This document shows positions 47,061 to 50,816 of a stretch of 64,000 nucleotides of DNA, piece by piece (position 1 is the first letter of the stretch; each line of letters opens with the position of its first letter). Under the pieces are notes generated by a model, which had not been told where the DNA came from, did no database searches, and saw only the letters and a list, made by a program, of their open reading frames with translations. This DNA comes from Sphingosinicella sp. (GTDB lineage Bacteria > Pseudomonadota > Alphaproteobacteria > Sphingomonadales > Sphingomonadaceae): contig NZ_JACESP010000011.1 in assembly GCF_013911755.1 (NCBI RefSeq), positions 1 to 64,000 on the forward strand. The letters are read 5' to 3'. A program made the position numbers and the translations under genes.

Positions 47061-48272
47061 ATGTCTGATATCAAGCGCGTGGTTCTGGCCTTCTCGGGCG
47101 GTCTCGACACGAGCGTGATCCTGAAATGGCTTCAGCAGACCTATGCCTGCGAGGTCGTCACCTTCACCGCCGATCTCGGCCAGGGCGAAGAGCTCGGGCC
47201 GGCGCGCGCCAAGGCGGAGCTGATGGGCGTCAAGCCTGAGCACATTTTCATCGACGATCTCAAGGAAGAGTTCGTGAAGGACTATGTGTTCCCGATGATG
47301 CGCGCGAACGCGCTCTACGAGGGTCTTTACCTGCTAGGCACGTCGATCGCCCGGCCGCTGATCGCGAAGCGCCAGATCGAGATCGCCAAAATGGTCGGCG
47401 CCGACGCCGTCTCCCACGGCGCCACCGGCAAGGGCAACGATCAGGTCCGCTTCGAGCTGGGCTATTACGGCCTCAACCCCGACATCAAGGTGATCGCACC
47501 GTGGCGCGAGTGGGATCTCACCAGCCGCACCCGCCTCATCGAGTTCGCCGAGGCGCACCAGATCCCCGTCTCCAAGGACAAGCGCGGCGAAGCGCCGTTC
47601 TCGACCGACGCGAACCTCCTCCACACATCGTCCGAAGGCAAGGTTCTGGAAGACCCGTGGGAGGAAGTCCCCGACTACGTCTTCTCGCGCACCGTGAACC
47701 CGGAAGACGCGCCCGACACGCCCGAATACATCACCGTCGAGTTCGACGCAGGCGACGCGGTCGCGGTCAACGGCGAGCCTTTGTCCCCCGCCAACCTCCT
47801 CGCCAAGCTCAATGACTACGGCCGCACGCATGGCATCGGTCGTCTCGACCTCGTCGAGAACCGCTTCGTCGGCATGAAGTCGCGCGGCATGTACGAAACC
47901 CCCGGCGGCACCATCCTCCACACCGCCCACCGCGCCATCGAGCAGCTCACCCTCGACCGCGGCGCCGCCCACCTCAAGGACGAACTCGGCCCGCGCTATG
48001 CCGAGCTCGTCTACAACGGCTTCTGGTTCAGCCCCGAGCGCGAGATGCTCCAGGCCGCCATCGATCACAGCCAGCAAAAGGTCAGCGGCACCGTCCGGCT
48101 CAAGCTCTACAAGGGCTCGGCATGGGTCGTCGGCCGCAAGTCGCCGAACTCGCTCTATTCCGAAAAGGTCGTCACCTTCGAAGACGACGCCGGCGCCTAC
48201 GACCAGCGCGACGCCGAAGGCTTCATCAAGCTGAACGCGCTGCGCCTGCGGCTTCTGGGGCGGCGGGGCTGA
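47061..48272 (+). CDS. argG: Argininosuccinate synthase
   Basis: Condenses citrulline and aspartate with ATP in arginine synthesis. The start at 47061 ([20 protein letters not shown]) has AAAGG nine bases upstream. The PP-loop SGGLDTS and the segments [14 protein letters not shown] and [17 protein letters not shown] are intact. 403 residues is typical. Its last 47 bases overlap the end of a convergent glycosyltransferase gene. Confidence 0.97.
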
Positions 48273-49845
48273 ACGGTTCTGCCGCGCACGATGTGGCCAT
48301 TCGATATTGCGCAGCCAGAAGTCCTAGAATGCCCAACGGCAGGATGGGCCACCCTTGCATGTTAAAGATGAACACGATTACCGGTGTCAAAAATGCAATT
48401 GTGATCGCGAGGCGTTCTAAAAGGCTGAGCCATCGCTGGTAGCGAGCGAGGGTCACAATCGCAGCCAATGACACCACTGTCATGTCGTAGTTAAATGCAT
48501 AGGGCAAAATCAGGAATGTGGCTGTGGCAACGATAAGCCCCAGATCTTGGTTACTTATGCGTCGCCATGCGGATATCAGAACAACAGCTATTGCGGTCAC
48601 CGCGATAGTGATTTGCAGTATACCTGCGACGGCTTCTCCGCAGATCAATCGAAAGCTGACCCAAACCGTGGGCATCATCCTTGGATAAAGATACTTGATC
48701 GGGTCTATATCCGTAATCAAATCGTTCTGGTATCCGAGCGTATCAGTAATCCATTGCCTCCAAAGCTCAAAACCAAACAGCGATCCGCTAGTAGCTACGA
48801 GCAGCAAGGTGATAACCGTAGCTGATCCGAAGGCGCGCCACTCGCCGCGAACAACAAGTACAAGGGGAATAAGAACTCCAAGATGAGGCTTGATTGTCAT
48901 CAGGCCAAAAAGCACTCCAGCACGAAGCGGGTGCTGACTCAGCCAGGCAAATCCCGCGAGCAGCATAGCCCCGATTACAAAGCCATAATGTCCCGCCCAA
49001 ATGTTGATCATGGAGGCCGGCAGGATGATGACGGACCAAAGCGGCACGGTGGTGCCGGAAACGTAAGACTTTGCCGCTGCAACGAACGCACCGCCACTTA
49101 CAATTATCCAAGTCAGCAATGCCGGCACGTACCCCATAAGCGCAAAAGGAAATATGAACAGAAGAACATGCGGAGGATAGGAAAAATTATGAATGCCAAT
49201 TCTGGGGTCGATAATCTTCCTTTGAAATTCTGCATACGACACTAGGTCGTATAAGTCTTCTAGATTTCCATTAAATAATATATTTGCGCCGGTCCAAACA
49301 TTTACAAAATCACGACCTATTAATGAATTGCTTGCCGTAACAATAATACCGTCAGCACCCATAATATCTGATGCTAGATAAATTCCCCCTCCAAAAGCGC
49401 CAAATAATATCAAGAAAATCAAAAAATAATTGTTTTTATCATTTCCTTCTGTATTATTTTCTTTATATTTTCTTCTGAATACAAATAACTTGTAAAATGA
49501 GAAATTAAACCCCATTGCAAATATCGTTGCACCCGCGAAAGCAGAAATTATAGGTACACCAGCGTAGGTAAGCGTAGAGAACACGACCGCATTGATTGCG
49601 AGGCCGCCTAGCGAGGCGAGGACGTAGCGGCGAAACTCAAGAAGAGTTGGGGCGGTCGTTATCCGAAAACTCCAACGTCGATTACCAAGCCATGTCGTAA
49701 CAATTGCCAAAGCCAAGGATGGAAATTGTGCCAGATAAGGTGTGAGACCAATCTGGGTCAGCAGTTCCAAACAGACTGTTGCAACGACAAAGGCCACGGC
49801 GCCGACGACAAGGAACATCGAAGTTTCGCGAGCGATACTTTTCAC
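48226..49845 (-). CDS. GtrA flippase domain fused to a GT-C (GT87-like) membrane glycosyltransferase
   Basis: A 539-residue polytopic protein. Residues 1-125 are a GtrA-like four-helix domain ([40 protein letters not shown], and [16 protein letters not shown] end). From about 140 a GT-C domain of roughly ten helices follows: an acidic luminal region [16 protein letters not shown], then [33 protein letters not shown], and repeated hydrophobic segments, resembling the GT87 family. GtrA flips polyprenyl-phosphate sugars; the GT-C part would use the sugar on the other face. The gene is AT-rich (strongest at 49240-49560). The last 15 residues are antisense to argG. It overlaps the GtrB-like gene by ATGA. 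Confidence 0.82.
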
Positions 49846-50816
49846 GGCGTGGGCAGCCCGCGCTGCATCAGGAGGAACATGCGCTTCAACTCAACGCGCG
49901 AGCGCGATACCGAGTCCAGTATGAGTCCGCAGATCGCCGACATCACGGCGATGATCATCAGTGCGGCGGCGAGGACTGCCGTGGGGATGCGCGGCACAAG
50001 GCCCGTTTGAAGGTATTCAGCAACGACCGGCAGGCCAAACACCAGCGACGCGAGCGTAAGCAGCGTGGCCAGCCCCCCGAAAAAGAATGCGGGCCGTGTT
50101 TCCTTCAGCAGCAGAAAGAATACTGACAAGATACGAAACCCGTCGCGGAAGGTGCGAAGTTTGCTCTCGGAGCCTTCCGGACGCACGCCGTAATCAGTCT
50201 CGATCTCCGCGACCGGCAGCATTAGTTGGCTTGCGTGAACCGACATTTCGGTTTCGATCTCGAAACCGCGGCTCACCGCCGGAAACGACTTCGCGAAACG
50301 GCGGCTGAACACTCGGTAGCCGGAGAAGATGTCGCTGAAATCGTCGCCGAACATCCACTGAAACACGCCGTTGAACAGGCGGTTGCCGAGTGCGTGTCCG
50401 GATCGTCCTGCGTCCTGCCGCACACCGCGCCGTGTTCCTACGACCATGTCGAGCCTGCGCTCGACGAGCGCCTGCACGAGTGTCGGCGCATCTGCCGCCG
50501 CGTACGTGCCGTCGCCGTCCGCCATCACATAGATGTCAGCGTCGACCTCGGCGAACATGCGGCGCACCACATGCCCCTTGCCCTGCCGCATTTCGCGAAT
50601 AACGATCGCGCCCGCATTCTCGGCCACGCGCGCCGTGTTATCCGAGGAGTTGTTGTCGAACACGTAGATGACCGCACCGGGAAGCGCCTCCGCAAAGCCC
50701 GCGATCACGTCCGCAATCGTCGCGGCCTCGTTGTAGCACGGCAGCACGACGGCAGTCGAAAGCCCGACGCGCGGATGCGCGGTGTCAAATTGGGAGGCGG
50801 AGGGCAGGGAAACCAT
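49842..50816 (-). CDS. GtrB-like polyprenyl-phosphate glycosyltransferase (GT2)
   Basis: A 324-residue GT2 enzyme with a cytosolic GT-A domain and two C-terminal membrane helices. AVVLPCYNEAATIADVIAGF, DNNSSDNTARVAE and the metal-binding DGDGTY are the usual GT2 motifs. GRSGHALGNRLFNGVFQWMFG and DIFSGYRVFSRRFAKSFP are the family blocks of polyprenyl-phosphate sugar transferases. Two hydrophobic segments (PAFFFGGLATLLTLASLVFG and AVLAAALMIIAVMSAICGLI) follow. Start set at 50816, with GAGGA six bases upstream. It precedes the GtrA-GT-C fusion and should charge its lipid carrier; the donor sugar is unknown. Confidence 0.88.
   Translation of the reverse strand: MVSLPSASQFDTAHPRVGLSTAVVLPCYNEAATIADVIAGFAEALPGAVIYVFDNNSSDNTARVAENAGAIVIREMRQGKGHVVRRMFAEVDADIYVMADGDGTYAAADAPTLVQALVERRLDMVVGTRRGVRQDAGRSGHALGNRLFNGVFQWMFGDDFSDIFSGYRVFSRRFAKSFPAVSRGFEIETEMSVHASQLMLPVAEIETDYGVRPEGSESKLRTFRDGFRILSVFFLLLKETRPAFFFGGLATLLTLASLVFGLPVVAEYLQTGLVPRIPTAVLAAALMIIAVMSAICGLILDSVSRSRVELKRMFLLMQRGLPTP

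Follow-up and report, generated by a model that had tools for sequence, protein, structure and literature searches.

The window analysed here is a stretch of 64,000 nucleotides at the start of contig NZ_JACESP010000011.1 of Sphingosinicella sp. (assembly GCF_013911755.1), in which we studied a two-gene Gtr-like cassette. A preliminary description, made from the sequence, had placed at 48226..50816 a GtrB gene next to a gene in which a GtrA domain is fused to a GT87/GT-C transferase. Both the span and the arrangement were borne out: two overlapping minus-strand genes fill these coordinates (Table 1), and the downstream one, referred to here as the joined gene, encodes a protein matched by the profiles of both families. 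PF04138 (GtrA) matched residues 11–123 with an E-value of 4e-19 (69.4 bits against a cut-off of 26.1; profile positions 2–117 of 117), so that GtrA homology is present at the N-terminus. PF09594 (GT87) matched residues 221–448 with an E-value of 1.2e-26 (94.3 bits against a cut-off of 25) over its full length (positions 1–237 of 237), and the C-terminal part therefore does not belong to an unrelated membrane family. At E <= 0.001, the 3.63-Mb genome contained no match of either profile other than the joined protein, which itself had no match in PHROGs at the same threshold. The junction between the two halves is a continuous single frame with no stop codon, and the motifs of both halves are intact. 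Based on loop charges, the C-terminus of GtrA and the N-terminus of GT87 are both predicted to be cytosolic, which makes the fused topology feasible. The overlap between the two genes, first read as ATGA, is in fact GTGA (4 bp), with the joined gene starting at GTG.

The upstream gene encodes a GT2 enzyme (PF00535, 59.1 bits) that carries DGDG at residue 100. Inspection by eye showed a pair of hydrophobic stretches near its C-terminus, in agreement with the GtrB plan attributed to it earlier. Its best NCBIfam match was TIGR04182 (AglJ; 218 bits, below the cut-off of 325), and in PHROGs it matched the GtrB-like family phrog_841 (E = 4.6e-9). The best match among solved structures was the GT2 domain of 5mlz, a dolichol-phosphate mannose synthase (DPMS).

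Table 1. Features of the cassette and its borders, in window coordinates.
Feature	Position	Strand	Basis or remark
Joined gene, GtrA domain + GT87/GT-C domain, 539 aa, GTG start	48226..49845	minus	Open reading frame and Pfam
GtrB-like GT2 gene, 324 aa, ATG start	49842..50816	minus	Open reading frame and Pfam/NCBIfam
GtrA/DPMS transmembrane domain, residues 11–123	49477..49815	minus	Pfam; model helices of low confidence
First GT87 helix, residues 138–162, with predicted cytosolic linker immediately before	49360..49434	minus	Loop charges and model
GT87 Pfam match, residues 221–448	48502..49185	minus	Pfam; PimE-like fold spans residues 134–522
Asp179 codon, GRDF motif, first predicted periplasmic loop	49309..49311	minus	Alignment
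Segment unlike congeners	48270..49841		No DNA match in GT87 part, weak in gtrA; third-position GC 31–57%
argG, conserved left border	46995..48272	plus	3' end overlaps 3' end of joined gene by 47 bp
Divergent STT3-like protein, 591 aa, conserved right border	50942..52717	plus	Weak NCBIfam match

Predicted fold and putative catalytic site of the joined protein

Structure prediction, which the preliminary description had proposed as a check, gave the GT87 half a PimE-like GT-C fold with 15% identity to PimE in the structural alignment, so that this half is identified by fold as well as by profile, and gave the GtrA half a low-confidence model. PimE itself is assigned to GT87 in PMC8476585. No PDB sequence, that of PimE included, was matched by our profiles A2 and A3 at E <= 10. 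The link to PimE thus runs only through fold and Pfam family, and the catalytic residues have no one-to-one mapping. Asp179 is kept in all 21 aligned GT87 rows and probably occupies the place expected for the catalytic aspartate of GT-C enzymes, as judged from its position in the loop and not from a residue-level match to D58 of PimE.

The fold search returned no known structure of GtrA type for residues 1–120, where the model is poor and the search hence uninformative. By sequence, the only solved relative at E <= 1 was the membrane domain of 5mlz, which matches the GtrA part (E = 7.8e-4). As the GT2 enzyme is closest to the GT2 domain of this same protein, the GtrA part could serve as a membrane platform keeping the GT2 enzyme close to GT87, by analogy with the GtrA/DPMS domain of some dolichol-phosphate-mannose synthases, while another protein flips the lipid-linked sugar. 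We regard this role as improbable; the GT2 enzyme has a C-terminal hydrophobic pair of its own and may need no platform. Like the joined protein, the archaeal-type synthase 5mlz has a GtrA/DPMS domain in one chain with an enzyme of its pathway. However, it carries that domain on the GT2 synthase, whereas in the window GtrA is fused to a GT-C transferase and the GT2 enzyme is a separate gene, so the cassette lacks the GT2–GtrA chain of dolichol-phosphate-mannose synthases.

Occurrence of the GtrA–GT87 fusion

We searched overlapping samples of family, order and class genomes, scoring a few candidate frames per genome in the protein searches. The joined protein as query matched 121 of 397 family genomes and 105 of 396 order genomes (the window's own included), and among the matches listed none besides the window spanned both halves. 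A GT87 profile search of the class identified GT87 in 56 of 337 genomes; comparing by reading the table of long GT87 frames with that of GtrA-bearing frames, we identified no shared frame among the matches listed. A search with a GT87 alignment provided 21 further loci from named genomes, most of which belong to Sphingobium and other sphingomonads; at least four of the loci are on the same contigs as loci already in the analysis. A GT87 frame was present in 20 of the 21, and none of these 20 frames was fused to GtrA. A separate genome scan with the whole joined protein returned 44 pattern matches, with no relative among them. In the literature we did not find a GtrA–GT87 fusion named, although coverage was thin for subscription journals and this is weak evidence of absence.

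Other GtrA joins

Joins of GtrA to other long parts were identified among 24 loci, comprising 21 listed GtrA rows with a frame of at least 445 residues (9 + 12, window aside) and three family rows. The scan for fusions also took in five loci from the class GtrA search; it was non-exhaustive, and shorter fusions were outside its reach. GtrA followed by a long part was present in four of the 24 loci (L077, L087, L067 and L083), and a fifth case, L015, was found in a congener (G001) at a locus separate from the argG site. L077:2441-5050 is a single frame of 869 residues with GT2, GtrA and PMT_2, that is, all three parts of a Gtr-type system. In L087, GtrA is followed by some 300 residues, for which the match to PMT_2 was weak and under the cut-off (E = 7e-4). 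The long C-terminal parts of L067 and L083 had no Pfam match, and where scanned, neither the L015/L083 type (L083 scanned for its pair) nor L067 matched a Pfam or NCBIfam family. Like the joined gene, all five continue from GtrA into a long part, and each has a GT2 enzyme, either as a portion of the same chain or encoded on the same strand no more than about 0.8 kb away. The check for a neighbouring GtrB-like gene, which the preliminary description had proposed for the GtrA + GT87 order, was thus positive in 5 of 5 of these other joins. They differ from it in the C-terminal part, which is PMT_2 in L077 and, weakly, in L087, and none of these joins had a GT87 match over the cut-off.

L015:6556-8460 and L083:983-2830 (the latter in G1160) each encode GtrA with a part of about 490 residues, align over 611 residues at 31% identity (E = 2e-91) and have the same gene order, namely a dolichol-phosphate-mannose-type GT2 gene, a methyltransferase gene and the joined gene. 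In an all-against-all BLASTP comparison of six C-terminal parts, this pair was the sole link, and there are therefore four types of join besides that of the window. The L015-type part also occurs alone: a search of 115 class genomes matched it from residue 125 onward in 11 frames of nine genomes, in no case with GtrA. Because one of these frames, in G631, has a weak GT87 match under the cut-off (E = 2.3e-4), the L015-type part may be a distant GT-C relative. The C-terminal parts of L015, L083, L067 and L087 are putative GT-C enzymes. The GtrA–GT87 join is a new combination of known families and one of several GtrA joins.

The recurrence of putative flippase-transferase joins suggests that the two partners really work together. 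One extension would be that GtrA-transferase fusions act as single-chain flippase-transferases, passing the polyprenyl-phosphate-sugar straight to the GT-C active site from the site of flipping; since GtrA has been joined repeatedly and separately to GT87, PMT_2 and unnamed membrane parts, GtrA would then normally dock on its GT-C partner. We put this forward tentatively, as somewhat short of an even chance.

The join could also be neutral, with gtrA and a GT87 gene brought into frame by deletion or import and the domains working independently, or only one of them working, with no gain. In keeping with this, only a single species yielded the fusion, and stand-alone GtrA and GT87 share a locus elsewhere: in 20 GT87 loci from other genera (L040-L059), unjoined GtrA lies beside GT87 in 11, and argG, GT87 and an STT3-like gene occur together in nine. 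However, the motifs of both halves are intact, and GtrA with a long membrane part in four other types goes beyond one accident. We therefore consider a neutral join rather unlikely.

The congener locus and the origin of the joined gene

In all five congeners sampled (G001-G005), gtrB is directly followed by a stand-alone gtrA of 125 residues, which starts with GTG at the same overlap as in the window, and the STT3-like gene borders the pair; GT87 is absent from the locus in all five. In the four congeners with a contig reaching argG, the gap is occupied by an open frame of 370–371 codons with the orientation of argG. This frame was confirmed by Pfam as a PAP2_3 protein in L013, the one locus of the four that was checked, and PAP2 was also confirmed by Pfam in L052. 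GtrB is 92–93% identical between the window and the congeners and the STT3-like protein 89–92% (four congeners), whereas GtrA is 61–62% identical to that of the congeners, which among themselves share 84–99%. Towards argG, DNA similarity ends where that gene ends (48267-48269) in four loci. Towards gtrB, two of the five loci lose the strong match at the gtrB end (49841) and have a second, weak match in gtrA (68%, 128–143 bases); in the remaining three the alignment extends into gtrA as far as 49487-49559, at lower overall identity.

Third-position GC along the joined gene amounts to 47% for the gtrA part, 31% for residues 127–260 and 57% beyond, against 78% in gtrB, 87% in argG, 87% in the STT3-like gene and 74–91% in gtrA of four congeners. 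Since this foreign composition runs along the entire joined gene, gtrA-GT87 looks to have been imported as a unit, and the whole probably came in one piece from a lower-GC donor, replacing gtrA and the PAP2 gene. Alternatively, gtrA may have evolved faster in place. The closest relatives found for the GtrA part of the window are still the GtrA proteins of the congeners. The GT87 part shares at most 46% identity with other GT87 found and branches deeply in a tree of 32 rows, in which no set of near kin was identified.

The same data bear on whether two neighbouring genes were merged by a sequencing or assembly error, as might be suspected from a single example with a very AT-rich junction (18% GC in 49401-49500). 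The junction, however, is internal to a contig of 111.6 kb, the genome is 99.94% complete, both halves are low in third-position GC and lie in one frame, and an error would have had to place a GT87 gene by gtrA, beyond the loss of a stop. We consider such an error very improbable.

The congener locus also allows that the GT87 donor is unrelated to GtrB, that GtrB and GtrA serve the STT3-like protein and that the join is a bystander; gtrB, gtrA and the STT3-like gene stand together without GT87 in all five congeners. In the window, by contrast, GtrA and GT87 are parts of one protein, and there is no other GtrA in the genome at E <= 0.001. Elsewhere, GT87 and the STT3-like gene share loci in which no relative of the window GtrB was listed (L040-L059; other GT2 genes are present in three), and the STT3-like gene is therefore independent of the window GtrB. 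On balance, a bystander join appears quite unlikely.

Proposed function of the cassette

GtrB-type enzymes make a polyprenyl-phosphate-sugar in the cytosol, GtrA is the proposed flippase, and GT-C enzymes use the product outside. The three-part scheme is set out in PMC11127046, and the GtrA-family protein GtcA is required for teichoic acid glycosylation according to PMC7389260, which also gives the Gtr layout of Shigella phage SfX as three separate proteins. Like that three-component system, the window has a GT2 synthase, GtrA and a GT-C part encoded by adjacent genes. It differs in having flippase and transferase in one chain, GT87 as the GT-C part, and a chromosomal sphingomonad locus whose joined protein has no PHROGs match. 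Because GtrA and GT-C share one frame, the cassette, with its GtrB-type gene alongside, is a Gtr variant and not a classical member. With PimE, a mycobacterial polyprenyl-phosphate-mannose-dependent mannosyltransferase, the GT87 half shares the GT-C fold; a GtrA domain is unmentioned in the passages on PimE consulted. To our knowledge, phosphatidylinositol mannoside acceptors are not expected in sphingomonads.

We favour, as the probable reading, a two-gene Gtr-type system for periplasmic glycosylation in which a single chain combines flippase and transferase. Working at the cytoplasmic side of the inner membrane, the GtrB-like enzyme would load one sugar onto polyprenyl phosphate; the GtrA half would bring the loaded lipid to the periplasmic side, and the PimE-like GT87 half would transfer the sugar to a periplasmic acceptor with Asp179 as probable catalytic base. 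The join would ensure equal amounts and closeness of the two activities, and direct hand-off, the channelling suggested in the preliminary description, may follow. The whole joined gene would probably have arrived from the lower-GC donor. The analysis shows the domains and their order, the gene overlap, the predicted fold of the GT87 half, the conserved motifs and a compatible predicted topology, whereas sugar loading, flipping, transfer, hand-off and import are inferred; the polyprenyl-phosphate-sugar donor is deduced from the protein family and the neighbouring gene.

Several points weigh against this proposal. The activities of the cassette proteins are predicted only, and for such exporters direct flippase evidence has not been shown, according to PMC11127046. 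The GtrA half was modelled at low confidence, with a predicted local distance difference test score of 42–63 (blocks of ten residues; four GtrA alignment rows). The GtrA–GT87 fusion is a single example in the genomes searched. Also, since gtrB-gtrA occurs without GT87 at the congener locus, the pair can have another partner.

The membrane crossing of polyprenyl-phosphate-sugars is poorly shown in general, and GtrA proteins are only proposed flippases. The joined gene is of value mainly because such a fusion points to GtrA and a GT-C transferase as direct partners; several separate GtrA joins extend this evidence to GtrA acting with a transferase, beyond GtrB alone. A natural GtrA-transferase chain fixes the identity of the partner and offers a 1:1 construct for structural work and liposome assays.

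The argG to STT3-like interval

Window positions 46995-54226 and loci L040-L059 share a recurring frame in the family, from argG to the STT3-like gene, marC and folD, around varying glycan genes. Among the 20 loci, argG is present in 11 and the STT3-like gene in 13 (both in nine). In the window, the joined gene and argG overlap tail to tail at 48226-48272; correspondingly, the 3' end of GT87 overlaps argG by 39–115 bp in seven of the 11 argG-bearing loci, and the other four have a gap of a few bases (one) or another gene in between (three). As stand-alone GT87 and GtrA both occur at the argG site in other genera, both halves of the joined gene have resident relatives there. With its varying glycan genes, the site offers a starting point for work on the surface biology of sphingomonads.

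The STT3-like protein at the right border had a weak NCBIfam match to archaeal STT3 (E = 0.03) and no Pfam match at E <= 1. It is a candidate second GT-C enzyme and may represent an undescribed sphingomonad GT-C family. The motifs DTDD and HWSRLVD are invariant in its five aligned rows.
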